From NCBI GenBank assembly GCA_900315125.1, contig OMXT01000057.1, positions 1 through 39,248 on the forward strand: a stretch of DNA of 39,248 nucleotides, given 5' to 3'. This document shows positions 16,626 to 38,089 of the stretch, one piece after another (positions within the stretch are counted from its first letter, which is position 1; every line of letters begins with the position of its first letter). The position numbers and the translations under genes are program-made. This DNA comes from an uncultured Eubacteriales bacterium (GTDB taxonomy: Bacteria; Bacillota; Clostridia; Peptostreptococcales; Anaerovoracaceae). Below the pieces are notes generated by a model, which searched no databases, had not been told where the DNA came from, and saw nothing but the letters and a program-made list of their open reading frames with translations.

Positions 16626-16643
16626 TATAGAATAGGAAAAGAA

Positions 16644-19475: not shown

Positions 19476-19544
19476 TGTAGAATAAAGCAATACGGTCATT
19501 CCGCGAAATAATAAAAATTTTTATAAAATTAAGGAGATACTCTC

Positions 19545-22175: not shown

Positions 22176-22546
22176 TACTGGGGAGGTTGGCACATAATAG
22201 TGCGGCAGACCTGCCCAGATGCGTTTTGCGGCCGGCGGTAATCTACCCAAGCTCCGAAATAACGGCAGGGTTGACTAATATGCCGGTTACATATCTATTT
22301 TGTCCGTTCCACCACCTTATGGAAGGAAAACTACAGAAAACTAACATGCGCATTCTGGCACGTTTTTCGCTTCTTATTTAAAAAAGACGAAAAATGCCCT
22401 GTTTTGTTGCAGGATGGGCAGATTAACCAAACGGTGCTGCAGCAGAGAGTGCGGCGGACCGCCGTAAACAACGGCAAACAGGAATGCGGACAGGGACGAA
22501 AACAAGCGGAAACGATTGAAAACAAACGGAAACTGAGGGAGAGACA
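22176..22546 (+). other. Gene-free regulatory gap before the alcohol dehydrogenase
   Basis: This stretch holds a sigma-54 promoter match (22356-22371) and a leader of roughly 165 bases. Within the leader a half-site GTTGC (near 22408) and a TGCCC/GGGCA hairpin can be seen. The first 180 bases hold no promoter or reading frame that I can support. A TGGCAC sequence at about 22189 has the wrong spacing to its GC for sigma-54. Confidence 0.5.
22356..22371 (+). promoter_or_regulatory. Sigma-54 (-24/-12) promoter match, alcohol dehydrogenase
   Basis: TGGCACG-N4-TCGCT: the GG and GC dinucleotides have the obligatory spacing and only one base of the TTGC box differs from consensus. It is the weakest of three such sites in the window and has no full GTTGC-N6-GCAAC palindrome upstream within the gap. 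Confidence 0.6.
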
Positions 22547-23704
22547 ATGTACGACTTTAACATGTGCATCTCGACGGATATCCATTTTGGGCGGGATGCG
22601 GAGAAGGAAACCGGAAGGTTAATGGCGAAGTATGCAGACAGCGTACTGATCTTGTATGGCAGTGAACGCATATACAGGGATGGTCTGGGAGGCAAGCTGG
22701 AAAAATATCTCGAGAAGGAATCCTGCAGTGTGTGCCGGCTCGGCGGGGTGAAGCCCAATGCGGACTCCGCCAAGATCGATGAAGCGGTAGACATGGTTCG
22801 CCGCAGAAATATTAACGGAATTCTTGCAGTGGGCGGAGGCAGCGTCATAGATACGGCTAAAGCGGTGGCGGTCAGCGCATGCAGCGAAGCGCCTGCGGTA
22901 GAAATATTCCGGGGAATCGCAGAGCCGGGGCTTTGTCTTCCCGTAGGCGTCGTGCTGACGAATGCGGCCACAGGATCGGAGGCGAATCCCACGGCAGTCA
23001 TCGCGGATCAGGTAAACGGAGAAAAACTGCTGTTCAGCGATCAGAGGATGCGGCCGAAGTTTGCAATCCTGGATCCTGCGCTTACACTGAGCGTGCCTGC
23101 CGCGACGACAGCGGCAGGGGGGTTCGATATATTCTCCCATGCCTTTGAACGGTATTTCGACCTGACAAGGGACAGTTTGCTGCTGGACCAGATGACGGAA
23201 GGGGTCATGAGAACGGTGGCAAACGTGCTGCCTCGGACGATACAGGATCCGGGCAATTACCAGTTCCGGGCGGAACTGATGCTGGCGGCGACCGTGGCTC
23301 ACAGCGATATGATCGGACCGGGCGGGGATTTTGCCTGCCACAGCGTTTCCCATGTGATGACGGAAGTGTTCGGCATCGATCACGGAGCGGCTCTCGCCAT
23401 GATCATACCTGCCTGGTGCGAGGTCATGAGAGATCTGCATCCCGAGCGGTTCGACCAGTTCTTCCGCAATGTGTTCGGTGCGGATACCTTCGGCGAGGGA
23501 ATGGAAAAACTCAGGGAATTCGTCCGCAGCATCGGGCTTTCGGAGACAATGGGCAATAAGCAGAATATTACCCCTGAGGAGCTGGCGGATATGACTGTAG
23601 GCGAAGGGAAGTTTGCCGGCGCGGGCTATGCGGCGCTGACCCGGGAGCAGGCTGTGAAAATATACGGAAGAATGCTCGCAGAGGACAAAGAACAGACTGC
23701 CTGA
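22547..23704 (+). CDS. Iron-containing alcohol dehydrogenase
   Basis: This 385-residue cytoplasmic group III dehydrogenase has the NAD(P)-binding GGGS at 96-99 and metal ligands D194, H198, H265 and H279, a pattern like that of YqhD/butanol dehydrogenases. It probably interconverts a short-chain aldehyde and alcohol. With a 4-hydroxybutyryl-CoA dehydratase nearby, a 4-hydroxybutyrate dehydrogenase (succinate semialdehyde reducing) role is attractive, but the sequence does not prove it and butyraldehyde/butanol is the plain alternative. GGGAGAG precedes the ATG. A sigma-54 promoter match lies upstream. Confidence 0.9.
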   Translation: MYDFNMCISTDIHFGRDAEKETGRLMAKYADSVLILYGSERIYRDGLGGKLEKYLEKESCSVCRLGGVKPNADSAKIDEAVDMVRRRNINGILAVGGGSVIDTAKAVAVSACSEAPAVEIFRGIAEPGLCLPVGVVLTNAATGSEANPTAVIADQVNGEKLLFSDQRMRPKFAILDPALTLSVPAATTAAGGFDIFSHAFERYFDLTRDSLLLDQMTEGVMRTVANVLPRTIQDPGNYQFRAELMLAATVAHSDMIGPGGDFACHSVSHVMTEVFGIDHGAALAMIIPAWCEVMRDLHPERFDQFFRNVFGADTFGEGMEKLREFVRSIGLSETMGNKQNITPEELADMTVGEGKFAGAGYAALTREQAVKIYGRMLAEDKEQTA

Positions 23705-23782
23705 TTTCCGCGACGGAGTCTTTCTGAAGACGCATCCAAAACAGTTGAAGGATGTGGGGATGTGCGGGGGGCAAATATGCAT

Positions 23783-23798
23783 GTTGCGCCGCCGCAAC
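23783..23798. promoter_or_regulatory. Putative activator-binding site (UAS) of the DUF362 operon
   Basis: The palindrome GTTGC-N6-GCAAC lies about 80-90 bases upstream of the -24 element, with an extra GCAAC half-site at 23816-23820. The same arrangement occurs at 30786-30801. Enhancer-binding proteins with Fis-type helix-turn-helix domains bind such sites. Assignment to the activator encoded at 29210-30730 is inferred. Confidence 0.65.
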
Positions 23799-23872
23799 GG
23801 ACAGGCAGAAGGACTGCAACAATATTGACGAACAATTAACAAGGACGTGTTGAAAATACAGGATTCCATGTT

Positions 23873-23888
23873 TGGCACGCCTGTTGCT
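23873..23888 (+). promoter_or_regulatory. Sigma-54 (-24/-12) promoter of the DUF362 operon
   Basis: TGGCACG-CCTG-TTGCT matches the sigma-54 consensus at every conserved base. It lies 68 bases upstream of the DUF362 start codon. Confidence 0.88.
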
Positions 23889-23955
23889 TTAACTAAATTC
23901 GGTATTATGATCTATATTCATCAATAATAAATTTACCCAGAGGAAGGAGAACAGG

Positions 23956-25245
23956 ATGAGTAACAAATCACAGGTAGCCCTCGTGAAGAGGCCCGACATC
24001 CAGCAGGACGTCACTAAGGTGTTTGATCTGCTCGGCGGAGTAAAGAACCTGATCCATAAAGGTTCTGTCGTTATGCTCAAGCCTAACGCAGGTCATGCGG
24101 AACCGCCGGAAACATCCGTATGTACCAATCCGGAAGTTATCCGTGCGGTCATCCGCGAAGTAAAGAAGGCGGAGCCGAAGGAGATCGTCATTTGTGAGGC
24201 TGCGGCGATCGGCTGCGACACCGTAGAGTGCTTCGAAGTCAGCGGTATCGCAAAGATGGCAGAGGAAGAGGGCGTAGAGTGCTACGATATCAAGAGAGAT
24301 AAGGACCTTGTTAATGTAGCGGTCAGAGGATATAAGTCAAACCTCGATCATATCAAACTGCCCAGAAGACTGATGGAGGCGGATCACCTGATCAACCTGC
24401 CGATCCTGAAGGCTCATGCCAGCATGGTATTCTCCGGCGCACTGAAGAACATCAAGGGCGTTGTGCAGGATAAGGTCCACATGCAGATGCACCAGCAGAA
24501 CCTGACCATGGCAATGATGGATGTATGGTCCGTATGTAAGGCAGACCTGAACATCATGGACGCTTACAGAGCAGCCAGCGGATACAGCCCGCATATGCCG
24601 GTTCCTATCGAGTCCAACATGATCCTCGGATCCAAAGACCCGGTAGCGATCGACCGCGTTGCCTGCGAGGTTACCGGTATCGATACAAGCGGCGTAAGCT
24701 ACTTCAAGGTTGCGGAAGAGACCGGACTGGGCGCTTATGACATGGATCAGATCGAAGTCCTCGGAAACACCATCGAAGAGTGTTTCAAGCAGATGTGGAT
24801 CCCCTATGTCGGCGATATGAGCAAGAGATGGCCGGAATACGACGTAAAGTGCGACGGAGCATGCTCCAGCTGCCAGGCGCTTCTTGCCATCAACATGGAA
24901 GAGCTGAAGGCTGTTGATGAGTATGAGAAGAACAAAGGCATGACCATCGTGATCGGCGGAAAGAATGAGATCCCCAAGGATATCCCCGATGACAGGATCG
25001 TACTTCACGGGAACTGCACAAAGAAGTATCTGAAGGATCATCCGGGAGCATACTGGATCCTGGGATGCCCGCCGAATGAGCCGGCTCTGTACCTGACTGT
25101 ACAGCGGAAGGAAGTCATCAACGGCATGGGTGACCAGGAAGAGGAGATCATTCGTCCCTGCATGAAGAGAGACGAACCGGTATGGCGCGAATATGTATTT
25201 GAGAAAGCGGAAGAATATTATAAGGAACATCAGGAAGGAAAATAA
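23956..25245 (+). CDS. DUF362 domain-containing protein
   Basis: This 429-residue soluble protein is recognisable as DUF362 by KPNAGHAEPPETSVCTNPEVIRAVIREVKKAEPKEIVICEAA and LINLPILKAHASMVFSGALKNIKG in the N-terminal two-thirds. The C-terminal third has a Cys cluster, CDGACSSC, and further GNC and GCPP cysteines that could bind a metal or cluster. No ferredoxin domain is fused, unlike in some relatives. The biochemical function of the family is poorly defined. AGGAAGGAG precedes the ATG. It is the first gene of a sigma-54-driven operon with a small unknown protein, a carboxylate-type transporter and a thiolase, so a role in substrate processing is likely. Confidence 0.85.
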   Translation: MSNKSQVALVKRPDIQQDVTKVFDLLGGVKNLIHKGSVVMLKPNAGHAEPPETSVCTNPEVIRAVIREVKKAEPKEIVICEAAAIGCDTVECFEVSGIAKMAEEEGVECYDIKRDKDLVNVAVRGYKSNLDHIKLPRRLMEADHLINLPILKAHASMVFSGALKNIKGVVQDKVHMQMHQQNLTMAMMDVWSVCKADLNIMDAYRAASGYSPHMPVPIESNMILGSKDPVAIDRVACEVTGIDTSGVSYFKVAEETGLGAYDMDQIEVLGNTIEECFKQMWIPYVGDMSKRWPEYDVKCDGACSSCQALLAINMEELKAVDEYEKNKGMTIVIGGKNEIPKDIPDDRIVLHGNCTKKYLKDHPGAYWILGCPPNEPALYLTVQRKEVINGMGDQEEEIIRPCMKRDEPVWREYVFEKAEEYYKEHQEGK

Positions 25246-25248
25246 ACC

Positions 25249-25515
25249 ATGCTGAATGACTATGTATCCTATGACAACAACGATAAGTTCAAGAAGATCC
25301 TGGATGACGTGTTTACCGATGAGTTCATGCAGAAGTATACGAATCTGGAGAATTTTGAAGCGTTCAAGTATTCCAGCGCGGTGATCTGCGACTGGACACA
25401 GCCCAGGCTGGTATATTCGAAAACGCTCCTGGACGGCTTTGTCAGAGAAAGCACGCAGTTCAGGTCCTGGGATGAGATGGTCATGAGAGCAACTGATGAA
25501 CGGTATGGCGTTTAG
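25249..25515 (+). CDS. Small uncharacterised protein (88 aa)
   Basis: I do not recognise the family. The 88-residue product is soluble, rich in aromatic and acidic residues (e.g. NDYVSYDNNDKFKKILDDVF, CDWTQPRLVYSKTLLDGF) and has a single Cys, with no signal peptide or membrane segment. It starts 3 bases after the DUF362 stop. Its ribosome site AGGAAGGA lies inside the end of that gene, which argues for tight coupling and perhaps a subunit or partner of the DUF362 protein. Confidence 0.8.
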   Translation: MLNDYVSYDNNDKFKKILDDVFTDEFMQKYTNLENFEAFKYSSAVICDWTQPRLVYSKTLLDGFVRESTQFRSWDEMVMRATDERYGV

Positions 25516-25586
25516 GTAAAAGAGTGCGGGGGCATAAGCTGCCTACGCACCCAAAATAATAACGGGAAAACCCCGGGGAGTGTAGA

Positions 25587-26927
25587 ATGTCTGAAAACAA
25601 CAACGTAAAGCTGGCGTCGGAAAATACCAAGTCCAACTTTGGTAAAGGCTGGCTCATTATTTTCTACTGCATGATCATGTTCTGGTTCCTGATCGGATAT
25701 TCCATCGACGGACAGAATATCGTCATCAGCGTATTCGCAGAAAGTCACTGGAAGGCACTGGGATATGAGAACGTTACCGCGCTTCACGCTGAACTGCTGA
25801 ATCTGGCTATGTATGCCGGACTGATCGGCGTTATCGCATATTTCGTTATCGGCCGGATCTGCATGAAGATCGGAGGAAGAGCTCTCTCCGCGATCTGTCT
25901 TGCACTGGCTGGTATTTCTTACATTTATTATGGTCACGCGACCACAACAACTTCATATTTTATCGGACTGACTCTTGTTACGATCTTCATTAACGGCGCT
26001 GCTTACATCGGCGGCGGAAATCTGGTAACCCAGTGGTTCCCCAAGAAAAAGGGACTGGCTAACGGTTATACCACCATGGGTCATAACCTTGGTTCTGCTC
26101 TGTACGTTCCTCTGATCAGCGGACTGATCGGGGCTTACGGCATGGCTAAGGGCATGACCGTCACCGGTATCGCAGGAATCTGCGTAGCTATTGTCGCATA
26201 TATTGTCATCAGAAATACACCGCAGGAGAGAGGCATCTATCCTGACAACGTAACGAAAGAAGTATACGAGAGAGAGTATGCGCAGGTAAGCGATGAGGCG
26301 GAGAGCCGCTGGACGGTAGCCAAGCTGCTGAAGACAAAGGAAATGTGGCTCGTAGCCATCATCATCGGCATCAACCAGCTGGTAACCACCGGTGTAATGA
26401 GCCAGATGGTTCCCAGAAACATGGAACTGGGATTCACCCAGGGAAAGACCGTAGCCCTGATGACCGTATGCGCCATCGTCGGACTGGCTGGTTCTTACGG
26501 ATTCGGATTCATCGATCAGAAGATGGGCGTTAAGACAGCAGTAAGAGCATACCTGATCTGGTACGTCGTCGCACTGCTCGTCAATGTACTGCTGAACAAC
26601 AAGACCGGCGGATATATCTGCGTAGCCATGGTCGGTATCGCGATCGGCGCTGCCGCTAACTTCATGACATCACTGCCTGCCTCCGTATTCGGAAGACATA
26701 ACTTCGACCTTGTATATTCCATCTACTTCCCCATCATGGAGATCGTGCTGATGCTGAATAACAAGATCAATTCTATGGCACTGTCCATGACCGGAAGCCT
26801 CCGCGGAGCTTACTTCGTATTCATCGTGCTGCTGGCAGTAAATTTCGTGCTGATCTCCGTACTGAACACAAGAAAGTACAATCTGGACTATGCGAAGGAA
26901 GATCAGCTTACAGGAAAGGAAGCATAA
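25587..26927 (+). CDS. MFS transporter, oxalate/formate antiporter (OFA)-like
   Basis: This 446-residue protein has about 12 transmembrane segments and a central cytoplasmic loop (about 210-250, ERGIYPDNVTKEVYEREYAQVSDEAESRW). The OFA-like features are the N-terminal MIMFWFLIGYSIDGQNIVISVF and the segment GGGNLVTQWFPKKKGLANGYTTMGHNLGSALYVP. Such proteins usually carry monocarboxylates. Position in the operon suggests that it imports the growth substrate of the pathway or exports its product. GGGGAG precedes the ATG. Confidence 0.87.
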   Translation: MSENNNVKLASENTKSNFGKGWLIIFYCMIMFWFLIGYSIDGQNIVISVFAESHWKALGYENVTALHAELLNLAMYAGLIGVIAYFVIGRICMKIGGRALSAICLALAGISYIYYGHATTTTSYFIGLTLVTIFINGAAYIGGGNLVTQWFPKKKGLANGYTTMGHNLGSALYVPLISGLIGAYGMAKGMTVTGIAGICVAIVAYIVIRNTPQERGIYPDNVTKEVYEREYAQVSDEAESRWTVAKLLKTKEMWLVAIIIGINQLVTTGVMSQMVPRNMELGFTQGKTVALMTVCAIVGLAGSYGFGFIDQKMGVKTAVRAYLIWYVVALLVNVLLNNKTGGYICVAMVGIAIGAAANFMTSLPASVFGRHNFDLVYSIYFPIMEIVLMLNNKINSMALSMTGSLRGAYFVFIVLLAVNFVLISVLNTRKYNLDYAKEDQLTGKEA

Positions 26928-26930
26928 CTT

Positions 26931-28109
26931 ATGCGTAATGTAGTAATCGTTGCAGGGTGCAGAACACCGATCGGAAAGATCAACGGCATGTTCCACACCA
27001 TTACATCGCTGGATCTCTCGATTCCGGTGATGCAGAATCTGGTCAAGAGAGCCGGCATAGACCCGGCCATGATCGAGGATGTGCTGTGGGGCTGCAACTA
27101 TCAGAGAACATATAAGGAGAACAATCTGGCAAGAGTAGCGGCTGTCAAGGCAGGTCTGCCGGTATCTGTACCGGGGATCACGCTGCACAGAAACTGCACA
27201 TCTTCCATGTCTGCCATCCAGTTCGGCTACTACCAGATCAAGGCAGGCGAAGCGGACTGCATCATGGCAGGCGGCGCGGATTCTATGAGCACTGCGCCTC
27301 ACATGCTGTTTGGCGCAAGAGACGGAATCAAGTTCGGCGACATGCAGCTCCACGACTCCATGTGGGATTCCCTGACGAATTTGGGCGTCGGCCCGGCTAT
27401 GGGCATCACCGCAGAGAATGTGGCGGAGCAGTACAACGTCACAAGAGAAGAAATGGACCGTTATGCTCTCCGCTCCCAGCAGAGAGCCTGCGCGGCCATT
27501 GACGCCGGGAAGTTCAAGGATGAGATCATCCCTGTAACTGTTCACGGGAAGAAGGGCGATACCGTCATCGACACCGATGAGGGTCCCCGCCGGGATACAA
27601 CATATGAGAAGCTTTCTAAACTGAAACCGACGTTTAAGGAAGACGGCAAAGTCACAGCTGGAAACGCATCCGGCATGAACGACGCGGCATCCGGCGTCAT
27701 CCTCATGGAAGAGGAAAAGGCGAAGGAGCTGGGCGTTCCCATCATCTGCAGAATCAAAGCCGTATCTGTCATTGGCTGCCCGCCGGAGATCATGGGCATC
27801 GGACCCATCGGCGCATCGGAAAAGGCACTGGAGAAGGCGGAGCTGACCATGGACGACATGGATCTGGTTGAGATCAACGAGGCCTTTGCCGCTCAGGTAC
27901 TGGCATGCCAGAAGACGCTGGGCATCCCCGATGAGAAGCTGAATGTCAACGGCAGCGGCATCTCTCTGGGACATCCGGTAGGCGCTACCGGTTCCCGCCT
28001 CGTTGTCACCTGCATGTATGAGCTGATGAAGCGCAAGCAGAAATACGGTCTGTGCACCCTCTGCGCAGGAGGCGGCATGGGCACCGCAGTGATCATCGAA
28101 ATGGTCTAA
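26931..28109 (+). CDS. Thiolase (acetyl-CoA acetyltransferase family)
   Basis: This 392-residue enzyme should cleave or form a 3-oxoacyl-CoA, most simply acetoacetyl-CoA to two acetyl-CoA. Catalytic elements are the nucleophile C89 in HRNCTSS, NEAFAAQ, GHPVGATG (His) and CAGGGMG (Cys). The nucleophile context HRNCTSSM differs from the common NKVCGSG/NRFCASG of biosynthetic thiolases, so substrate preference may differ. It starts 3 bases after the transporter stop. A hairpin terminator follows. Confidence 0.92.
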   Translation: MRNVVIVAGCRTPIGKINGMFHTITSLDLSIPVMQNLVKRAGIDPAMIEDVLWGCNYQRTYKENNLARVAAVKAGLPVSVPGITLHRNCTSSMSAIQFGYYQIKAGEADCIMAGGADSMSTAPHMLFGARDGIKFGDMQLHDSMWDSLTNLGVGPAMGITAENVAEQYNVTREEMDRYALRSQQRACAAIDAGKFKDEIIPVTVHGKKGDTVIDTDEGPRRDTTYEKLSKLKPTFKEDGKVTAGNASGMNDAASGVILMEEEKAKELGVPIICRIKAVSVIGCPPEIMGIGPIGASEKALEKAELTMDDMDLVEINEAFAAQVLACQKTLGIPDEKLNVNGSGISLGHPVGATGSRLVVTCMYELMKRKQKYGLCTLCAGGGMGTAVIIEMV

Positions 28110-28148
28110 AATGGACTCCGGCGCATCCGGATGAAATATGGAACAAAG

Positions 28149-28199
28149 CAGGACTCGGACAGCCGGCGGCTTATGCTGCGGCGGCGGGTCCTGTTTTCT
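28149..28199 (+). terminator. Terminator of the DUF362-thiolase operon
   Basis: CAGGAC and GTCCTG close a long GC-rich stem (28149-28193, inner GCCGGCGGC/GCGGCGGC part imperfect), followed by TTTTCTGTT. Confidence 0.75.
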
Positions 28200-28274
28200 G
28201 TTAGCCTGACATATTTCGGGCTGTATTTCGGCAAATCAGAGTGGTAAGATAGCCGGTGGAGGCTTTGTTATATA

Positions 28275-29156
28275 ATGAACAGAAAACTGATCGGACAAAT
28301 GATTCTGCTCTACCTTCTGTGGGGCATGAACTGGGCAGTTATGACGGTAGTAAACCGGTATTTTCCGCCGGTCCTTTTCGTGGCTTACCGGTTTTCCATG
28401 GGCGCTGCAGTACTGGTGATTTTCTGCATGTTCCGGAGGATCCCGCTGCCGGAGCGGAAGTGCTGGCCATGGATCGCTCTCAGCGGTATCCTGCTCATGG
28501 CTGTGAATAACCTGATGGTGCAGATAGGGACGAAATACCTGGGCGCCGGCCTGGTGGCGGTGCTGGATTATACCATGTCTGTGTGGATGGCCATACTGGG
28601 CGTCCTTTTCCTGAAGGAGAAGATGACGGCTCACAAGGCAGCGGGTATTTCCATGGCAGTGGTCGGTCTGTGCATCCTCATGAATGTGGATGTGCGGGGC
28701 GAAACATGGGCCATCGTCATGATGATCGCCGCGGCTGTGATCTGGGCGCTGTCCAGCCTGATCGTCAAGGTGAAACTGGGCGGATGCAGTATGATCCCCA
28801 TGACCATGGGACAGATGATCTGTGCGGCTGTCGTCCTCGACATCTATGTGATGATATTCCCCCAGGGTTCGCCCCAGTGGTGTCTTCCCAGCGTCGCTTC
28901 GCTGTTGTATAACGGTATTCTCTGTTCCGCGCTGTGTTTCGTGATCTGGAGCCGGATGCTGGAACAGATGGAGGCCAGCACGGCTTCTGTTGCAGTGATG
29001 GCGGTGCCGGCCATCGGCGTCATGGCAGGGGTGATCTTCCTCCATGAACCCATGACCTGGGGCATAGCAGCGGGGATGGTGATCCTCTTCATCGGTATCC
29101 TGACGGTGCTGGGCGTGCGGATCCCGCTGCCCGGAAACAAAGATATCAATAAATAA
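28275..29156 (+). CDS. EamA/DMT-family membrane transporter
   Basis: This 293-residue protein has about ten transmembrane helices in two EamA repeats. It is distinct from the copy at 21107. The ATG at 28275 is 12 bases from GGTGGAGG, a little far. A TATAAT overlaps the start region, so leaderless initiation cannot be ruled out, although I saw no matching -35. Substrate unknown. It lies between two sigma-54-type operons but has no sigma-54 site of its own. Confidence 0.87.
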   Translation: MNRKLIGQMILLYLLWGMNWAVMTVVNRYFPPVLFVAYRFSMGAAVLVIFCMFRRIPLPERKCWPWIALSGILLMAVNNLMVQIGTKYLGAGLVAVLDYTMSVWMAILGVLFLKEKMTAHKAAGISMAVVGLCILMNVDVRGETWAIVMMIAAAVIWALSSLIVKVKLGGCSMIPMTMGQMICAAVVLDIYVMIFPQGSPQWCLPSVASLLYNGILCSALCFVIWSRMLEQMEASTASVAVMAVPAIGVMAGVIFLHEPMTWGIAAGMVILFIGILTVLGVRIPLPGNKDINK

Positions 29157-29158
29157 AA

Positions 29159-29180
29159 GGGCAGCCTGCGGCTGCCTCTT
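29159..29180. terminator. Bidirectional terminator between transporter and activator genes
   Basis: GGCAGCC-TGC-GGCTGCC forms a 7-bp stem. The minus strand continues CCTTTTATTT and the plus strand TCTTTAAT, so it can end both convergent transcripts. Confidence 0.8.
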
Positions 29181-29209
29181 TAATATGCGCTGTTGATCTC
29201 AAATTCTTA

Positions 29210-30730
29210 TCAGTTTTTCCCTTTGGGATATTCTATGCCGTACTGTTTGATTTTACGGGATATGGTAGAAGCGTTGACGCCCAGCTTCTCGCCGGCGTCC
29301 CTGAGACTGCGTGAGCTCCGCAGTACGGATTCTATGACGCTCTTCTCGTAATTCTCCACAGATTCTGCCAGGGTGAAGTTCTCCGGCGCCGCCGTGCCCT
29401 GGGAAATATCCAATACGCCCCGGATCATCTCCTCGTTTCCGCCATCCATGCTGGATGCGCAGATCGTAAGGTACTCTATGACATTTTCCAGTTCCCGGAC
29501 ATTGCCCGGCCAGCTGTAGGAGCGGAGCAGCTGCCTGTCGCCTTCCGTCAGTGTCAGATGACGTCCGTGTTTCTTGGAAAAAAGCTCAATAAAATGATCG
29601 CACAGCAGGTCGATATCCTCTACCCGGTCCCGCAGAGGCGGGATGTTGACAGGGATCACGTTCAGCCGGTAATAAAGATCCTGGCGAAACTCGCCGGCGG
29701 CGATCTTCGCTTTCAGGTCGCTGTTTGTTGCGGCAATGAAACGGATGTCCAGATCGATGGGCCGGGTACCGCCCACCCTCGTGATCTTCTTCTCCTGGAT
29801 GGCCCGCAGCAGCTTGACCTGCAGATCCATGGGCATGTCGCCGATCTCATCCAAAAGCAGTGTGCCGCCGTTTGCTGTCTCAAACAGTCCCGTCTTGCCG
29901 GAGGCGTTCGCCCCGGAGAAGGCGCCCTTCTCATAGCCGAAGAGCTCAGACTCCAGCAGGTTCGCCGGTATAGAAGCGCAGTTAACTTTTACATAGGTCT
30001 TGCCAACCCGCTTGCTGGCGTTATAAATCTCATTGGCGACGATCTCTTTCCCTACGCCGGATTCACCGGTGATCAGGACGGTAGCGTCAGTAGGAGCGGC
30101 AAGATCGATGGTGGTCGCGACCTTCTTCAGCGCAGGAGAGTTTCCGATCATGCGGCGGGTGATAGAATTTTTCTTAGTGATCTTTACCTGCTGCGTATCC
30201 CTGGCATTGCCGCTGCTGTCCAGGAAATGCTGGTAGTCTCTGCGCAGAGATTCCAGCGAAAGAACAGGACGGCTCGTGACAACGATCTGGTGGAGCTGTC
30301 CCTGGTCATCGAAAATGGGAACGCCGACAGTATATCCGACCCCGCTGGCGCCGTTCTTCGTTACGTTAGCCAGACGGAAGATCCGTGTCTTCTTCTCCAT
30401 GACGTCCAGGGTGGAACCGCCCGTGAAAAGATCCCCCTTCGCAACGATATCCGATGTGTACCGTCCAAGGACCTCCTCCGGGAGTATCCCGGTATTCTTC
30501 TGGTGAGCGGGATTGACGTAGAGAACCTTTCCCTCCGCATCGGTGATGTATACGCTGTCGTCCAGAGAATCTACAACGACCTTGTAGTCGATACCGTTCT
30601 GAAGAAACACATTCAGATCCCAGCGGATCTCCTTCAGAAGAGATACTGCGTCCTCCGTCAGTTCTGCGCTGCCGCCCAGAGCCCGGTCTATTTTCTCTAT
30701 AACTTGCTGAATTGCTAATGATTGCTCCAT
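29210..30730 (-). CDS. Sigma-54-dependent transcriptional activator with PAS domain
   Basis: This 506-residue enhancer-binding protein has a PAS-type sensor (about 50-155), a central AAA+ domain with Walker A GESGVGKE (222-229), the sigma-54 contact loop GAFSGA (269-274) and Walker B LLLDEIGD, then the R-finger region RFIAATNSDL and WPGNVRELENV. A C-terminal Fis-type helix-turn-helix reads RDAGEKLGVNASTISRKIKQYGI. The usual GAFTGA has Ser for Thr. The frame is open upstream, but GGGAGGAG three bases before the ATG at 30730 fixes the start. It is divergent from the cyclase operon and probably activates all three sigma-54 sites here. There is no receiver domain, so the signal is likely a small ligand. 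Confidence 0.92.
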   Translation of the reverse strand: MEQSLAIQQVIEKIDRALGGSAELTEDAVSLLKEIRWDLNVFLQNGIDYKVVVDSLDDSVYITDAEGKVLYVNPAHQKNTGILPEEVLGRYTSDIVAKGDLFTGGSTLDVMEKKTRIFRLANVTKNGASGVGYTVGVPIFDDQGQLHQIVVTSRPVLSLESLRRDYQHFLDSSGNARDTQQVKITKKNSITRRMIGNSPALKKVATTIDLAAPTDATVLITGESGVGKEIVANEIYNASKRVGKTYVKVNCASIPANLLESELFGYEKGAFSGANASGKTGLFETANGGTLLLDEIGDMPMDLQVKLLRAIQEKKITRVGGTRPIDLDIRFIAATNSDLKAKIAAGEFRQDLYYRLNVIPVNIPPLRDRVEDIDLLCDHFIELFSKKHGRHLTLTEGDRQLLRSYSWPGNVRELENVIEYLTICASSMDGGNEEMIRGVLDISQGTAAPENFTLAESVENYEKSVIESVLRSSRSLRDAGEKLGVNASTISRKIKQYGIEYPKGKN

Positions 30731-30750
30731 AGTCTCCTCCCATTGCCCAT

Positions 30751-30778
30751 ATTTTATCATAAAACTGAATGAATACAA
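30751..30778 (-). promoter_or_regulatory. Probable promoter of the activator gene
   Basis: On the minus strand TTGTAT (30778-30773), a 16-base spacer and TAAAAT (30756-30751). The palindrome at 30786-30801 sits directly upstream of this -35, so the activator could influence its own expression. Confidence 0.55.
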
Positions 30779-30785
30779 CTGGATT

Positions 30786-30801
30786 GTTGCCGGTCTGCAA
30801 C
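30786..30801. promoter_or_regulatory. Putative activator-binding site (UAS) of the cyclase operon
   Basis: The palindrome GTTGC-N6-GCAAC has an extra GCAAC at 30816-30820. The pattern repeats that at 23783-23798. It lies about 120-130 bases upstream of the -24 element and between the two divergent genes. Confidence 0.68.
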
Positions 30802-30919
30802 GTTTTCCGCCTTTTGCAACAAAGCCCTGACCGGCCGGCACCCGGACACTCCGACAGGAAAACCGCTCCATGCGTTGGAAACACGGGCAAACAGGACTTT
30901 GTTCAAAAAAAGATTAATT

Positions 30920-30935
30920 TGGCACACCCATTGCG
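30920..30935 (+). promoter_or_regulatory. Sigma-54 (-24/-12) promoter of the cyclase operon
   Basis: TGGCACA-CCCA-TTGCG matches the invariant GG and GC with correct spacing. It lies 59 bases upstream of the cyclase-family start codon. Confidence 0.86.
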
Positions 30936-30993
30936 TACTACTATGGCAGTTAATAAATAGCTCAGGCTGAAAATTATAAAAGGAGAAGAAACA

Positions 30994-31812
30994 ATGGGAA
31001 AACAGGTATTAGTAGATTTATCTCATCCGTTTGGTAACGGAAATCCGCTCTGGCCGTCCAACGGTGACTTCCACATCGACCGTGTACAGCACATGCCGAT
31101 GCATCGCCGTCTGCTCCAGACATTCAACGATTTCCACATGCATAACAGCACACATGCTGACTCTCCGTCACATGTTCTTCCGGAGACTCCTTATACACAC
31201 GAGCTGCCCCTGGAGAATTACTACGGACCGGCTGTATGTCTGGACATCCCCAAAAAGCACTGGGAACTGATCACTGTTGAGGATATCGACGAGGCTGCCA
31301 AGAAGGTTGAGGGCGGCATTCAGGAAGGCGACTGGGTCCTGATCTGCACAGGCATGAACAAGCGCTGGGGTGAGAATGACGATTACTTCATGTACAGCCC
31401 GGGAATGTCCATCGAGGGAGCAAAGCACCTGGTATTCGACCTGAAGGTAAAGGGCGTTGGTTTCGACCTGCAGGCGCTGGACCACATCCTGTACACCTAT
31501 GCTGCTCAGCACGGCCCCGGACCCTATGTCCCCAGAATCGTTGATGAGTATGTAAAGGAATTCGGTCATGAGCCGAAGGAAGACTTCCCTGAGTGGGAGC
31601 CGGTACACGAGATCCTGCTGGGCAACAACGTCATGGGTATCGAGAACCTGGGCGGAGATATCGAGAAGGTCAAGGGACAGAGATTCATGTTCTCCGCATT
31701 CCCTCTCCGCTGGTACATGGGAGACGGAACCATCGTAAGAGCCGTTGCCTTCATTGATGAGGACAAGCTGAACGATGTACCTGACCGTGTTTACAAGTAC
31801 GGCGTATATTGA
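30994..31812 (+). CDS. Cyclase-family (PF04199-type) metal-dependent hydrolase
   Basis: This 272-residue soluble protein belongs to the family of kynurenine formamidase and isatin hydrolase, which hydrolyse amides or open small rings using a metal. The motif HxxxHxDxPxH is intact as H50, H54, D56, P58 and H60 (HNSTHADSPSH). It may open a cyclic amide or lactone that yields the acid used by the following enzymes, but the substrate is unknown. AAGGAGAAG precedes the ATG. A stem with a T tract follows the stop, so this gene may be made in excess over the rest of the operon. Confidence 0.88.
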   Translation: MGKQVLVDLSHPFGNGNPLWPSNGDFHIDRVQHMPMHRRLLQTFNDFHMHNSTHADSPSHVLPETPYTHELPLENYYGPAVCLDIPKKHWELITVEDIDEAAKKVEGGIQEGDWVLICTGMNKRWGENDDYFMYSPGMSIEGAKHLVFDLKVKGVGFDLQALDHILYTYAAQHGPGPYVPRIVDEYVKEFGHEPKEDFPEWEPVHEILLGNNVMGIENLGGDIEKVKGQRFMFSAFPLRWYMGDGTIVRAVAFIDEDKLNDVPDRVYKYGVY

Positions 31813-31867
31813 TTCCAGCTGCAGAATGCAGTTGATAACAGAGTAGTGTACTGATTTGATGATTAAG

Positions 31868-31907
31868 GCGGGCGCGGGCTGACAGGTCCGCGCCCGCTGG
31901 TCTTTTT
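31868..31907 (+). terminator. Intra-operon hairpin with T tract
   Basis: GCGGGCGCGG and CCGCGCCCGC form a 10-bp stem followed by TGGTCTTTTT, between the cyclase and dehydrogenase genes. No promoter is visible after it, so it is likely a partial terminator that sets expression ratios. Confidence 0.75.
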
Positions 31908-31922
31908 GAGAGGTTATTTATT

Positions 31923-32867
31923 ATGAGTGATAAGAAAAAAGTAGCGGTGCTGGGCGCAGGCGTTATGGGCACCGGCATCGGCCAGACATTTGCTGAGGCA
32001 GGCCACGATGTCATGATGATCTATGTCTACGACGACATTACAAGAGGGGATCCGAGAGACCGGATGAAGAAGAACCTGGAGGATCTCTGCGAAATGGATG
32101 TCATTACGGAGGATCGGATTCCGGAGATCCTTTCCCACGTCAGCACCACAGAGAGCATTGAGGAAGCGGCGGAATTCGCGGACATCTTCTTCGAGTGCAT
32201 CGTAGAGAACATGGGCGTCAAGCAGGATTACTTTAAGAAGCTGGACGAGCTCTGCCCGGTTTCTACCATCCTCGCTACCAATACGTCTGTTATGAGCGTC
32301 ACGGAGATTGCCGAGAAGTCTGAGCATAAAGAGAGAATTATCGGGACGCACTTCTGGAAGCCGGCTTATCTCATGCCTCTGGTAGAGGTGGTCAAGACGA
32401 AGTACGTCTCTGAGGATGTAGTGAATGCTACATATGCACTGCTGGAAGAGGCAGGCAAGAGCCCGGTCATCGTTCAGAAGGATGTCCCGGGATTTCTGGC
32501 GAACCGCATGCAGCACGCGCTGTTCCGGGAGGCCATCTCTATCGTAGAAAACGGCATTGCTACGCCGGAGGACGTGGACAAAGCCATCAAGAACGGTTTC
32601 GGCATGCGCCTCGGCGTCATGGCGCCCTTTGAGACCATCGATTCCGGCGGTACCGATCTGACATACAGCATCCACGAGTATCTGTTCCCCCACATCGAGA
32701 ACTCCACAGAACCGTCTCCGCTGCTGAAGCAGAAGCTGGACGAGGGCAAGCTGGGATTCAAGAGCGGCGAGGGATTTGAGAAGTGGTCCCCGGAAAGAAT
32801 CGACGAATTCCAGAAAAATCTGAATGAAGGCCTTGTAAAGGTTGCAAGAGCTCTTGGAAAATTATAG
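31923..32867 (+). CDS. 3-hydroxyacyl-CoA dehydrogenase family protein
   Basis: This 314-residue NAD(P)-dependent enzyme resembles 3-hydroxybutyryl-CoA dehydrogenase. It has the Rossmann GAGVMGTGIG, catalytic residues in NTS, GTHF (His), LVEVV (Glu) and GFLANRM (Asn), and the C-terminal domain ending KLGFKSGEGFEKW. The usual HFFNP motif is HFWKP, and the strand after the Rossmann turn reads MMIYVYDD, both unlike standard enzymes. Oxidation of 3-hydroxybutyryl-CoA to acetoacetyl-CoA fits its neighbours, but another 3-hydroxy acid or thioester is possible. GAGAGGT precedes the ATG. Confidence 0.87.
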   Translation: MSDKKKVAVLGAGVMGTGIGQTFAEAGHDVMMIYVYDDITRGDPRDRMKKNLEDLCEMDVITEDRIPEILSHVSTTESIEEAAEFADIFFECIVENMGVKQDYFKKLDELCPVSTILATNTSVMSVTEIAEKSEHKERIIGTHFWKPAYLMPLVEVVKTKYVSEDVVNATYALLEEAGKSPVIVQKDVPGFLANRMQHALFREAISIVENGIATPEDVDKAIKNGFGMRLGVMAPFETIDSGGTDLTYSIHEYLFPHIENSTEPSPLLKQKLDEGKLGFKSGEGFEKWSPERIDEFQKNLNEGLVKVARALGKL

Positions 32868-32885
32868 AATATCTTTATCGGAATG

Positions 32886-32916
32886 AAGCGGCGCGGGTCT
32901 TGGATCCGCGCTGCTT
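32886..32916 (+). repeat. Intergenic hairpin without T tract
   Basis: AAGCGGCGCGG and CCGCGCTGCTT pair around a short loop between the dehydrogenase and dehydratase genes. It resembles the hairpin at 31868 in its GCGCGG stem but lacks a T run, so an mRNA-processing or stability element is more likely than a terminator. Confidence 0.55.
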
Positions 32917-32958
32917 CCTGGACCCGCAGCCCGGGCAGTAAGGAAAGGATACATTTAT

Positions 32959-34437
32959 ATGGCATTAATGACAGGAGCTCAGTACATTGAGAGTCTTCGG
33001 AAGCTGAACACGAGAGTTTACATGTTCGGAAAGAAAATCGACAACTGGGTAGATGATCCCATTATCCGCCCGTCGATCAACTGCGTGGCCATGACTTATG
33101 ATCTGGCCCAGGATCCCCAGTACGAGGATCTGATGACGGCGACGTCCAGCCTGACCGGAGAGAAGATCAACCGGTTCACCCATCTGCACCAGAGCACACA
33201 GGACCTGATCAAGAAGGTCAAGATGCAGCGTCTCCTGGGACAGAAGACCGGAAGCTGCTTCCAGCGCTGCGTCGGAATGGACGCCTTTAATGCGGTATAT
33301 TCTACAACATATGAGATTGATGAGAAGTACGGAACGAGTTATCAGAAGAACTTCATCGATTTCCTGAAGATGGTTCAGGAAAAGGATCTGGTCGTCGACG
33401 GAGCCATGACGGATCCCAAGGGCGACAGAGGGCTTGCTCCCCATGCACAGCCGGACGCGGACATGTACATGCATATCGTTGAGCGCCGCCCGGACGGTAT
33501 CGTTGTAAGAGGGGCCAAGGCCCACCAGACCGGTTCCATCAACTCTCACTGGCACATTATCATGCCGACGATCTCCATGAAGGAAGCGGATAAGGATTAC
33601 GCGGTATCCTTCGCATGTCCTACGGACGCGGAAGGTCTTTACATGGTTTACGGCCGTCAGTCCTGCGACACCAGAAAGATGGAGGAGCACGCCGGATTCG
33701 ACGTGGGCAACCCCAAGTTCGGCGGACAGGAAGCGCTGGTCGTATTTGACAACGTATTTATTCCGAATGAATATATCTTCATGGCCGGAGAGTATGAGTT
33801 CGCTGGCATGATGGTGGAGCGTTTCGCCGGATATCACCGCCAGAGCTACGGCGGATGCAAGGTAGGCGTAGGCGATGTGGTCATCGGTGCGGCCGCTCTC
33901 GCTGCGGAATACAACGGATGTGAGAAGGCGTCTCATATTAAGGACAAGCTTATTGAGATGACCCATCTCAACGAGACTTTGTACTCCTGCGGCATCGCCT
34001 GCTCCGCGGAAGGTCACCAGACCAAGGCGGGAAATTACCAGATCGACCTGCTGCTGGCTAATGTATGCAAGCAGAATATCACCCGGTTCCCCTATGAGAT
34101 CGTCCGTCTCGCAGAAGATATCGCAGGCGGTCTGATGGTCACCATGCCCTCCAACGTGGACTTCGATTCCGATCTTCCTGTTGGGAAGGAAGGGGAGACT
34201 ATCGGCGAGATCTGCAATAAGTTCTTTAAGACGAAGGAAGACGTTCCGACCAGGAACCGCATGAAGGTCCTCCGTCTCCTGGAGAACCTCTGCCTGGGAG
34301 CAGCGGCGGTAGGCTACCGGACGGAATCCATGCACGGCGCAGGTTCCCCGCAGGCGCAGCGTATCATGATCCAGCGCCAGGGCAACATCCAGGGAAAGAA
34401 GCAGCTTGCCAAAGATATCACCGGCATTGAGGACTGA
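32959..34437 (+). CDS. abfD: 4-hydroxybutyryl-CoA dehydratase / vinylacetyl-CoA isomerase
   Basis: This 492-residue enzyme uses FAD and a [4Fe-4S] cluster to dehydrate 4-hydroxybutyryl-CoA to crotonyl-CoA by a radical mechanism. The cluster ligands of the C. aminobutyricum enzyme (C99, C103, H292, C299) appear here as C100, C104, H293 and C300, all shifted by one. Long blocks such as MQRLLGQKTGSCFQRCVGMD and VERFAGYHRQSYGGCKVG match that enzyme as I remember it. This makes it the best-identified metabolic gene of the region. AGGAAAGGA precedes the ATG. It is the last gene of the sigma-54 operon. Confidence 0.95.
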   Translation: MALMTGAQYIESLRKLNTRVYMFGKKIDNWVDDPIIRPSINCVAMTYDLAQDPQYEDLMTATSSLTGEKINRFTHLHQSTQDLIKKVKMQRLLGQKTGSCFQRCVGMDAFNAVYSTTYEIDEKYGTSYQKNFIDFLKMVQEKDLVVDGAMTDPKGDRGLAPHAQPDADMYMHIVERRPDGIVVRGAKAHQTGSINSHWHIIMPTISMKEADKDYAVSFACPTDAEGLYMVYGRQSCDTRKMEEHAGFDVGNPKFGGQEALVVFDNVFIPNEYIFMAGEYEFAGMMVERFAGYHRQSYGGCKVGVGDVVIGAAALAAEYNGCEKASHIKDKLIEMTHLNETLYSCGIACSAEGHQTKAGNYQIDLLLANVCKQNITRFPYEIVRLAEDIAGGLMVTMPSNVDFDSDLPVGKEGETIGEICNKFFKTKEDVPTRNRMKVLRLLENLCLGAAAVGYRTESMHGAGSPQAQRIMIQRQGNIQGKKQLAKDITGIED

Positions 34438-34471
34438 TAAAGAAACCCATTGCAATTATATACAGAAGGGA

Positions 34472-34501
34472 CGGGGAAGCAGTATGCTCCCCGCCTTTTC
34501 T
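34472..34501 (+). terminator. Terminator after abfD
   Basis: CGGGGA and TCCCCG form a stem with a 10-base loop, followed by CCTTTTCTGT. Confidence 0.75.
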
Positions 34502-34572
34502 GTGTCATGGCCGAAACTGTCGGCGCATACGAAAACAATGGAAAAGTATTGTTAAAAAGACACAAAACCCTG

Positions 34573-34604
34573 TTGACAAACCGCAGCCGCTGATATAGTA
34601 TAAA
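34573..34604 (+). promoter_or_regulatory. Promoter of the T-box leader
   Basis: TTGACA at 34573-34578. The -10 is ambiguous between TATAGT (34594), TAGTAT (34596, 17-base spacing) and TATAAA (34599). Transcription should start close to 34608. Confidence 0.75.
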
Positions 34605-34605
34605 T

Positions 34606-34867
34606 ACAACTGAAAAGACCAAAGGCGTTGACGGAGACAGTAGACGCGCTGCAGAAGGTACAGCGAACCGGGGATGGTGTGAGCCCGGGGCCGAGGGAGC
34701 AGCCGGATCGAACATCACTCCTGAGCTGCAGAACTGAACGCGCAGGCAAGTAAGTGCTGACGGGCCTTCCCCGTGATCGGAAGTGCGTATGATGGTACGC
34801 AGAGTAGCAGGTGGTTTATAAGCGAGTCATGTACATCCTCGTCCTGATACGGACGGGGATTTTTTAT
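34606..34867 (+). ncRNA. T-box riboswitch, isoleucine type (specifier AUC)
   Basis: This is a tRNA-sensing leader. Stem I contains AGTAGACG-like and GGATGGTG elements, and then the specifier context GAAC-ATC-ACTCCTGAG (34710-34725), where ATC (34714-34716) reads as an Ile codon. Stem III is TGCGTA/TACGCA (about 34784-34799). The T-box bulge TGGT (34812-34815) would pair with the ACCA end, consistent with A73 of tRNA-Ile. The terminator CCTCGTCC/GGACGGGG (34837-34858) is followed by ATTTTTTAT. Bases after TGGT read TTATAAGCG instead of the usual ACCGCG, so the antiterminator is unusual. It should raise expression of the oxidoreductase genes when tRNA-Ile is uncharged. Confidence 0.88.
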
Positions 34868-34897
34868 GTACGGTTTCCAGATGGAGGGATATCCGAT

Positions 34898-35641
34898 ATG
34901 AGTGATAAAGAGAAAATGGAAAAGCAGAGCGGGGCAGCGCCGGAGACTGCTGCGGCAAACGCACCGGAGCATGGTGCAGCGGAAACGGCAGCGAATAGTG
35001 CAGAAGTGACAGCGGCGAATAACGCTGCAGAGACTGCAGCGGAAATGGCGCTGGAGCAGCAGCGGGAGCATACGGTGGAGATCCGCTGGCACGGCAGAGG
35101 CGGACAGGGAGCCAAGACCGCCTGTCTGCTCCTGGCAGACGCGGCATTCAGCTCCGGCAAACAGGTCCAGGGATTTCCCGAATACGGCCCGGAGCGCATG
35201 GGAGCGCCGATCACCGCATACAACAGGATCTCTGATACGGAGAATCTCGTTCACTCCAATATTTATGACCCGGATTACGTGGTCGTCGTCGATGAGACGC
35301 TGCTCCACACCGTGGATGTGACCGCAGGTCTGCGGGAAAATGGGGCCATCATCATCAACAGCACCAGGGAACCGGCGGAGCTGCGGCCCCTGCTGAAGGG
35401 GTACAAAGGCAGGGTCTGCACGGTAGACGCAAGGAAGATCTCTATGGAGACGCTGGGAAAGTACTTCCCGAACACGCCCATGCTGGCAGCGGTAGTCAGC
35501 GTCAGCGGCGTCATAGAGAAGGAGCGGTTCCTCAAGGATATGGAAAGTTCATTCAAACATAAATTCGCCACCAAGCCCGGGGTCATCGAGGGCAATATGA
35601 ATGCCCTGAAGATGTCCATGGATCAGGTTAGAGAGGGATAG
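34898..35641 (+). CDS. 2-oxoacid:ferredoxin oxidoreductase, gamma subunit
   Basis: This 247-residue subunit carries the POR gamma domain (about 59-240, beginning VEIRWHGRGGQGAKTACLLLADAAF, with QGFPEYGPERMGAPITAYNRIS). The first 55 or so residues are an unusual low-complexity Ala/Glu/Thr/Asn-rich extension. The frame is open from 34811, but GGAGGG at 34883-34888 and the terminator in the leader place the start at 34898. It is the first of four genes in the order gamma-delta-alpha-beta. The Ile T-box suggests a branched-chain 2-oxoacid substrate. Confidence 0.9.
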   Translation: MSDKEKMEKQSGAAPETAAANAPEHGAAETAANSAEVTAANNAAETAAEMALEQQREHTVEIRWHGRGGQGAKTACLLLADAAFSSGKQVQGFPEYGPERMGAPITAYNRISDTENLVHSNIYDPDYVVVVDETLLHTVDVTAGLRENGAIIINSTREPAELRPLLKGYKGRVCTVDARKISMETLGKYFPNTPMLAAVVSVSGVIEKERFLKDMESSFKHKFATKPGVIEGNMNALKMSMDQVREG

Positions 35642-35663
35642 CGAGGAGACAGAGAGGTAACAA

Positions 35664-35969
35664 ATGTTCAGATCAGCGAGATATATAAATGAAAAGACGC
35701 CCTGGCAGAAGCTGACGCCGGGAGCGGAAATCTACGAGCCGTCCACATCCCGTTTCGTTAAGACCGGGGAGTGGAGAACCATGACGCCGGTATTCGATCC
35801 GGATAAATGCAAGCAGTGTATGCTTTGTGTACCCTACTGCCCGGACGCGTCGATCCCTGTGATCCAGGGAAGACGCCAGGAAACGGATCTGGATCACTGC
35901 AAGGGCTGCGGCATCTGCGCCAAGGTCTGCCCCTTCAAGGCAATCACGATGGAAACGGAGGTAGAATAA
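35664..35969 (+). CDS. 2-oxoacid:ferredoxin oxidoreductase, delta subunit (2[4Fe-4S] ferredoxin)
   Basis: This 101-residue electron-transfer subunit has two cluster motifs, CKQCMLCVPYCPD and CKGCGICAKVCPF. The N-terminal part (TPWQKLTPGAEIYEPSTSRFVKTGEWR) is the typical delta-subunit lead-in. AGAGAGGT precedes the ATG. The stop overlaps the alpha-subunit start by one base (TAATG). Confidence 0.92.
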   Translation: MFRSARYINEKTPWQKLTPGAEIYEPSTSRFVKTGEWRTMTPVFDPDKCKQCMLCVPYCPDASIPVIQGRRQETDLDHCKGCGICAKVCPFKAITMETEVE

Positions 35970-37147: not shown

Positions 37148-37149
37148 TC

Positions 37150-38079: not shown

Positions 38080-38089
38080 GCGAGAAAGA

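Follow-up and report, generated by a model that had tools for sequence, protein, structure and literature searches.

The 39,248-nucleotide contig OMXT01000057.1 of an uncultured Eubacteriales bacterium (assembly GCA_900315125.1), which in its whole length is the window analyzed here, carries a cluster of genes for a cyclase-family hydrolase, a DUF362 protein, a thiolase, and a 4-hydroxybutyryl-CoA dehydratase (AbfD), among others, together with −24/−12 (sigma-54) promoter sites and the gene of a sigma-54-dependent activator. An earlier note had read this cluster as a sigma-54 regulon for a 4-hydroxybutyrate-type fermentation. All of the genes and sites that it named are present in the sequence, and the features between 22356 and 38079 are as follows:

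22356..22370, + strand: weak −24/−12 site 5′ of the iron-containing alcohol dehydrogenase gene, with one mismatch (TGGCACGTTTTTCGC), 191 bases before the start codon
22547..23704, + strand: iron-containing alcohol dehydrogenase (PF00465), an accessory gene; family in 23 of 65 sources (window counted)
23873..23887, + strand: sigma-54 site of the DUF362 operon, exact TGGCAC-N5-TTGC, 83 bases before the DUF362 start
23956..25245, + strand: DUF362 protein (PF04015), a putative nickel-pincer and iron-sulfur enzyme with a predicted LarA fold
25249..25515, + strand: 88-residue orphan protein, the probable DUF362 partner ("unknown" in the earlier note); in 45 of 68 loci
25587..26927, + strand: major facilitator superfamily (MFS; OFA-like) transporter (PF07690); in 31 of 68 loci
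26931..28109, + strand: thiolase (TIGR01930, above cut-off); in 52 of 68 loci
28275..29156, + strand: EamA transporter (PF00892), possibly accessory; family in 3 of 65 sources; not previously noted
29210..30871, − strand: PAS and sigma-54 activator (bacterial enhancer-binding protein; PF00158, PF08448, helix-turn-helix), divergent from the cyclase operon; in 55 of 68 loci
30920..30934, + strand: sigma-54 site of the cyclase operon, exact TGGCAC-N5-TTGC, 74 bases before the cyclase start
30994..31812, + strand: cyclase-family hydrolase (PF04199), placed by a tree in a sister clade of phloroglucinol-type (DPGC-like) cyclases
31923..32867, + strand: probable free-acid 3-hydroxycarboxylate dehydrogenase (TfD-like; hereafter HBD-like), by its 3HCDH fold and residue signature
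32959..34437, + strand: 4-hydroxybutyryl-CoA dehydratase/vinylacetyl-CoA isomerase (AbfD; HpaB fold); in 29 of 68 loci
34811..38079, downstream of AbfD: 2-oxoacid:ferredoxin oxidoreductase set (gamma, delta = ferredoxin, alpha, beta); not previously noted

Our family scan took in 15 window proteins, from 22547 to 38830. The cyclase and its counterpart in congener G002 share 92% identity, and the iron-containing alcohol dehydrogenases just 53%. The MFS transporter matches L-lactate and oxalate/formate carrier models below cut-off. For the activator, an alternative start is possible at 30730, and the nearest NCBIfam model, PrdR, scores far below its cut-off. The 2-oxoacid:ferredoxin oxidoreductase set was considered as a part of the pathway and dropped, since none was seen beside AbfD in relatives and the set falls outside the conserved cluster.

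Two of the three window sites match the sigma-54 consensus exactly, with the −24/−12 pattern of GG and GC ten bases apart, and ∼0.08 such sites would be expected by chance in 39 kb (an estimate for both strands, ten fixed bases, and equal base use). The one-mismatch site at the alcohol dehydrogenase is by itself unconvincing, as the window holds 32 matches at ≤2 mismatches against 34.8 expected by shuffling. Our promoter scan covered 65 sources, namely 24 kb of the window, 62 relative loci, and two congener stretches; a site was counted if it had at most one mismatch and lay between 400 bases before and 60 bases after a start, and the heads from 13 cluster families were compared with control heads of other genes of at least 150 residues. 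A sigma-54 site was found at 108 of the 145 cluster operon heads versus 7 of the 147 control heads. It stands at 19/21 DUF362 and 32/37 cyclase operon heads (window included in both), at 7/10 AbfD heads, at 10/13 LarC and 4/5 LarB heads (genes of the nickel-pincer system discussed below), and at 2/54 activator genes. Moreover, three loci hold an rpoN-type gene (L062, L064, and L079, by clustering; the L064 copy was verified). Together with the presence of the activator at most related loci, these counts bear out the proposal of one sigma-54 regulon with a dedicated activator; the cluster genes are probably switched on together by this one protein, which would sense a pathway compound via its PAS domain.

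The gene set recurs in relatives, and its members were counted at 68 window-type loci by tblastn, with identity and coverage thresholds chosen per family. Not all of these loci are independent: L030/L053, L032/L089, and L034/L110 each represent a single place, L091/L092 come from opposite ends of the same contig, and the ruminant-gut loci are closely related; L114, moreover, is a fragment in which no cyclase could be counted. Because contig ends truncate several loci, the genes may in truth be more frequent. With these limits, the cyclase is present in 67, the activator in 55, the thiolase in 52, the HBD-like and the small protein in 45 each, DUF362 in 40, the beta-keto-acid cleavage enzyme (BKACE) family in 33, the MFS carrier in 31, AbfD in 29, LarC in 24, LarB in 8, LarE in 4, a transhydroxylase in 5 (two being the same place), an NCS2 carrier in 4, and a CtfAB-type CoA-transferase in 4. 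Relatives combine and reorder the genes of both window operons, in many orders and yet together. In L068, L070, L087, and L102, the cyclase, HBD-like, thiolase, and DUF362 genes lie on one strand with nothing but cluster genes between them, and in Hornefia and Emergencia loci the genes (LarC)-BKACE-cyclase-(HBD-like)-AbfD stand in a row opposite to the activator; in Emergencia timonensis, three additional genes are inserted. This mixing of the same genes among relatives ties the two operons to one another, and their earlier assignment to one pathway holds.

Hosts of the cluster include Eubacterium ramulus, Catenibacillus scindens, and Flavonifractor, all of which are flavonoid degraders. E. 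ramulus and F. plautii are named as such in excerpts of PMC10470551. In the two Flavonifractor loci L055 and L058, two genes grouped with the cyclase lie on either side of a TRAP transporter set. Further, the 5.8-kb contig of L049 (G007:C3) carries opposed partial copies of the BKACE and activator genes and is possibly an assembly artefact. Clusters of cyclase, cupin, and BKACE genes also occur on plasmids of the aerobes Novosphingobium, Rhizorhabdus, and Mycobacterium riyadhense (L050, L051, and L052), with a short-chain dehydrogenase/reductase in all three and an HBD-like gene in two; the RW1 cluster lies near a hydroxyquinol dioxygenase. Within the titles and abstract beginnings that searches of one open-access library listed for phloroglucinol cyclohydrolase, pyrogallol/phloroglucinol cyclase, AbfD with BKACE, DUF362, and nickel-pincer enzymes, we found no description of the cluster.

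In a tree of 35 rows, the window-type cyclases form one branch (95/100), whose sister group consists of the cyclases from seven phloroglucinol-type loci (93/94). Six further cyclases of the order stand apart, with a placing that is unsure because of their long branches. The window cyclase is 42-45% identical to the cyclases of the phloroglucinol-type loci and matches isatin hydrolase weakly (E 4.5e-7). According to excerpts of PMC10470551, the Clostridium scatologenes cyclase (CsDPGC) depends on Mn and acts as a retro-Claisen hydrolase, carrying W20 and Y22 at the positions of Ile and Leu in isatin hydrolase; the window cyclase keeps W20 and has S22 in place of Y22. The same excerpts describe the triacetate-forming dehydrogenase (CsTfD) as lacking the two CoA-binding residues of 3-hydroxybutyryl-CoA dehydrogenase (HBD), Lys56 and Asn221, and as keeping Ser117, His138, and Asn188. 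By our alignment reading, the window HBD-like protein has Val and Gly at the Lys56 and Asn221 positions, respectively; all 44 HBD-like family rows keep the Ser, His, and Asn and have Gly in the Asn221 column, as do five TfD-like rows. A caution applies here, in that the butyrate-operon HBD of the window genome also has Gly in the Asn221 column; this enzyme keeps an adjacent His-Pro, which the window-type HBD-like proteins and TfD lack. The HBD-like protein is probably a TfD-like, free-acid 3-hydroxycarboxylate dehydrogenase, and the 3-hydroxyacyl-CoA oxidation ascribed to it in the earlier note is contradicted by the lost CoA-binding residues and by the likeness to the free-acid triacetate-forming enzyme.

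No BKACE was found among the window cluster proteins scanned. About half of the related loci have its gene within the cluster; the window genome has six BKACE genes outside the window, two of them TAL-like (81-85%). Among the clustered BKACE proteins, 31 of 32 share 54-80% identity with their counterparts in phloroglucinol-type loci and one (L072) shares 43%; the position of CsTAL Trp16 is occupied by Val in 24 and by Trp in 5, and was not read in 3. At L042 (G000:C97), two TAL-like BKACE genes (81-85%) flank another sigma-54-type activator gene and a second HBD-like gene of free-acid pattern, which may form a further BKACE pathway in the window genome. Judged by the relationships of its enzymes, the pathway of our cluster looks like a phloroglucinol-type ring opening, as an undescribed sister of the phloroglucinol pathway.

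The window AbfD is itself, by its sequence, a genuine 4-hydroxybutyryl-CoA dehydratase, aligning end to end with 1u8v (phmmer 6.6e-274, 912 bits, 488 residues), the AbfD of Clostridium aminobutyricum. Such an enzyme, with a sigma-54 site at most AbfD heads, is what a 4-hydroxybutyrate-type fermentation would need as its key step, and a cyclase opening a lactone or ring amide would suit PF04199, which includes amide hydrolases such as isatin hydrolase. We nevertheless hold this fermentation to be very improbable. AbfD was not found in 39 of the 68 loci, and its 29 occurrences are too few for the core of the system against the thiolase (52), the small protein (45), the HBD-like protein (45), and DUF362 (40); the cyclase resembles phloroglucinol-type cyclases but matches isatin hydrolase only weakly; and the dehydrogenase looks like a free-acid type. 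Moreover, a second AbfD of the window genome, 80% identical, is encoded in an apparently ordinary butyrate-type operon on contig C82 (L048), alongside an acyl-CoA dehydrogenase, Etf, a crotonase, and a CoA-transferase-like gene (most of these named by eye). A lactone/lactam hydrolase feeding AbfD was likewise set aside, given the grouping of the cyclase and the free-acid look of the dehydrogenase. Among the 15 window proteins scanned, no 4-hydroxybutyrate CoA-transferase lies beside AbfD. The statement that the set lacks a CoA-transferase stands for these proteins but not for the related loci, 4 of 68 of which have CoA-transferase genes; that it lacks a crotonase is true of the window but not of the genome, which has two crotonases in addition to its six BKACE genes. 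The suggestion of a substrate not previously linked to AbfD is probably right.

We compared the window-type loci with seven anaerobic loci classed as phloroglucinol-type from the genes they carry rather than from experiments. Four of these seven (L035, L036, L040, and L041) also supplied the queries for the reductase and the cupin; with self-matches excluded, the reductase is found at ≥45% identity in six of the seven (39% in L041) and the cupin in all seven. The cupin (E≤0.001) is found in 0/68 window-type loci versus 7/7 comparison loci, and so is the phloroglucinol reductase (PGR) at 45% identity. DUF362 (40/68), the small protein (45/68), and any of LarB, LarC, and LarE (29/68) occur in the window-type loci, and none of them was found in the seven comparison loci at E≤0.001. 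By its position, DUF362 would be the candidate for the step before ring opening. MFS and NCS2 transporters occur in both cluster types (MFS in 2/7 phloroglucinol-type loci), which fits related substrates.

This exchange of modules could also mean that the cluster is a PGR-independent second route for phloroglucinol itself, with DUF362 acting in place of PGR on the same substrate, and the retention of the TAL-type tryptophan in 5/32 clustered BKACE proteins would agree with such a route. In a PGR search of 15 cluster genomes, close PGR (81-100%) was found in six, a fragment in a seventh, and weaker matches in two, while the window genome and five other cluster genomes (two probably of the same strain) gave no match at E≤1e-30; G000 (the window genome), G002, G007, and G008 are among those without one. 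The window pathway, accordingly, does not seem PGR-dependent. However, G006 and the genomes of L058, L063, L070, L078, and L086 have close PGR too, in which case a second system for the same substrate would be redundant; the cyclase carries S22 where CsDPGC has Y22; and valine takes the place of the tryptophan in 24/32 clustered BKACE proteins. We regard a second phloroglucinol route as improbable; where a host has both systems, they probably serve different substrates. The pyrogallol hydroxytransferase-like gene (PF21423) of the Family XIII loci points to trihydroxybenzenes. In L121 (G021:C164), L106, L107, L109, and L110, DUF362 adjoins such a large subunit, mostly with thiolase or old-yellow-enzyme reductases.

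For the DUF362 protein, the predicted model (pLDDT 84) was searched against the PDB with Foldseek, and all 18 matches at E≤0.001 are LarA (lactate racemase), malate racemase, or LarA-like, the next match (7e-3) being unrelated. In hhalign, with LarA sequences picked by a length filter, H154, K164, and H179 of DUF362 pair with LarA residues taken as His174, Lys184, and His200. These three residues are invariant in 25 cluster DUF362 proteins, and four cysteines (C303, C306, C354, and C371) are invariant in the same 25 and in eight other DUF362 proteins, suggesting an iron-sulfur site. A Pfam scan gave no PF09861 match for the window DUF362, and a PDB sequence search with DUF362 and the small protein returned nothing useful; in excerpts of PMC11770544, DUF362 and DUF2088 share one Pfam clan (CL0471), with DUF362 used there purely as an outgroup. 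The 88-residue protein yields a high-confidence model (pLDDT 94.6) with no PDB fold match at E≤0.001 and no Pfam match at E≤1.

A link to the nickel-pincer nucleotide (NPN) is further indicated by the neighbors. One LarC, one LarB, and one LarE from the clusters pass the NCBIfam curated cut-offs; L079 holds a CbiMQO-type metal importer (M verified; Q and O by eye), and six loci hold a metal-sensing repressor (L068 copy verified). Lar-gene arrangements differ between lineages, which argues against one inherited accident. In five loci of ruminant and uncultured gut bacteria (L093, L094, L098, L099, and L101), two LarC1-like genes stand in tandem, of which the second may differ in role. Among 61 relatives, all six genomes with a window-type DUF362 have LarC; for Lar_N, five of these gave no match and the window genome a fragment, and LarC is also present in 35 of the 55 other relatives, which lack the window-type DUF362. 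In both congeners, G002 and G007, a LarE-LarB-LarC set is present (named from its similarity to the verified window-genome set), and neither gave a Lar_N match. In 26 genomes with in-cluster LarB/LarC (L076 left out), Lar_N is full in 8, partial in 1 (L070; 55-194, E 1e-13), weak in 4 (E 2.9e-5 to 8.7e-4), and not found in 13, although many are draft or metagenome assemblies, in which absence is not proof; in four further cluster genomes, it is full in L063 and L086, partial in L055, and not found in L053. Across 109 genomes of the phylum, LarC is present in 67/87 with DUF362 versus 3/22 without (Fisher p 6e-8, confounded by ancestry), and among 10 LarC-bearing genomes without a Lar_N match, DUF362 is present in 7 and not in 3.

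On these grounds, we tentatively propose, at somewhat less than even confidence, that this DUF362 clade comprises the first nickel-pincer enzymes other than LarA, namely iron-sulfur oxidoreductases that would use NPN as a hydride carrier and, with the 88-residue partner, reduce or rearrange a polyhydroxylated ring. Several observations weigh against this proposal and the pathway built on it. The fold matches have low TM-scores (0.31-0.43), perhaps from domain orientation in the model; the hhalign probability is 62% with eight other DUF362 proteins added and 3% for the cluster family alone; and the K/H/H pattern occurs in all eight other DUF362 proteins examined. The first catalytic histidine of LarA, H108, has no counterpart in the DUF362 alignment, where just the equivalent of 174 (H154) is aligned; single-histidine LarA proteins are known from excerpts of PMC12611868, but they lack the other histidine, 174. 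The in-cluster LarC that was checked (L066) is the N-terminal LarC1 part alone, and no Lar genes were found within reach in 39/68 loci. In the window genome, LarE, LarB, and LarC are encoded as a set on a separate contig (C41), and a partial LarA lies at the edge of contig C68, so that LarA may be what uses the NPN made there. Of the 87 DUF362-bearing genomes, 20 have no LarC, which limits the nickel claim to this clade rather than every DUF362. Further, two of the window-type loci (L106 and L109) contain a reductase-like gene, albeit a distant one (33-36%), and the proposed scheme does not account for the role of AbfD.

Some of these observations would be accommodated if DUF362 were an ordinary iron-sulfur protein without nickel, having Lar neighbors since the pathway also racemises a 2-hydroxy acid via a LarA encoded elsewhere. 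Full Lar_N matches in 8 of the 26 genomes, the partial one of the window genome, and the wide occurrence of DUF362 without LarC would speak for this explanation. Set against it are the predicted fold and K/H/H pattern common to DUF362 and LarA and the 17/26 genomes, mostly draft or metagenome assemblies, in which Lar_N gave no match, as in Emergencia timonensis, or a weak one (E≥2.9e-5). We consider it unlikely.

Overall, we favor, by a modest degree, the view of a sigma-54 regulon, with an NPN-bearing DUF362, through which a cyclic 1,3-diketone is degraded anaerobically; this diketone would most likely arise from the reduction of a polyhydroxylated aromatic ring. We infer this chemistry from the observed gene set, its conservation, promoters, relationships, residue signatures, and predicted fold, and order the steps by analogy. 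(i) The MFS carrier would import the substrate. (ii) DUF362 and its 88-residue partner would make or adjust the cyclic diketone, in the place of PGR, using NPN bound at K164/H179 and the four-cysteine iron-sulfur site. (iii) The Mn-type cyclase would hydrolyze the ring open in a retro-Claisen reaction, yielding a free 3-hydroxy acid, (iv) which the TfD-like dehydrogenase would oxidize to a 3-oxo acid. (v) BKACE would convert the 3-oxo acid and acetyl-CoA to acetoacetate and an acyl-CoA, and (vi) thiolase, in some strains with AbfD, would take the products to acetyl-CoA and to crotonyl-CoA for butyrate. Under the hydride-carrier proposal above, the ring could possibly be a hydroxylated phloroglucinol, e.g., 1,2,3,5-tetrahydroxybenzene, whose extra oxygen could possibly reach 4-hydroxybutyryl-CoA and so explain AbfD.

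Excerpts of PMC11796402 report that ∼15% of the genomes analyzed there have larB, larE, and larC without larA, from which unknown NPN-binding proteins were inferred. If our proposal is true, the DUF362 clade would account for some of these genomes. The regulon offers a concrete candidate for an NPN protein, with partners, promoters, and culturable hosts, as well as a second probable retro-Claisen ring-cleavage route in gut anaerobes, leading to acetyl-CoA and probably butyrate.

Elsewhere in the window, a 963-residue open frame at 16608-19499 (− strand) runs antisense to UvrA, and further long antisense frames are present; these are probably a composition effect and would mislead length-based gene calling.

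Compared with known systems, the window AbfD has segments near-identical to those of the C. aminobutyricum enzyme, the ones carrying the cluster ligands, and differs in sitting with ring-cleavage genes. With LarA and related NPN enzymes, as described in excerpts of PMC11770544, PMC12611868, and PMC11796402, DUF362 has in common the Foldseek fold, the aligned equivalents of His174, Lys184, and His200, and Lar genes nearby in relatives; unlike LarA, the window DUF362 is without a His108 equivalent, has an extra four-cysteine site, and has no known 2-hydroxy acid. A homologue of the large subunit of pyrogallol-phloroglucinol transhydroxylase (PF21423; in 5/68 loci) adjoins the cyclase and DUF362 genes in loci of Family XIII, and none lies in the window. 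The phloroglucinol pathway of C. scatologenes (PGR, DPGC, TfD, and TAL, in excerpts of PMC10470551) shares with our cluster a cyclase-family ring opening, a free-acid dehydrogenase, BKACE, thiolase, and an MFS carrier, and a sigma-54 activator is also present in 4/7 of the phloroglucinol-type loci compared. Unlike that pathway, the window-type loci are without a cupin or close PGR, and many add DUF362, the 88-residue protein, LarB/LarC/LarE, and AbfD, while the window cyclase, with S22 for Y22, belongs to a separate sister clade.

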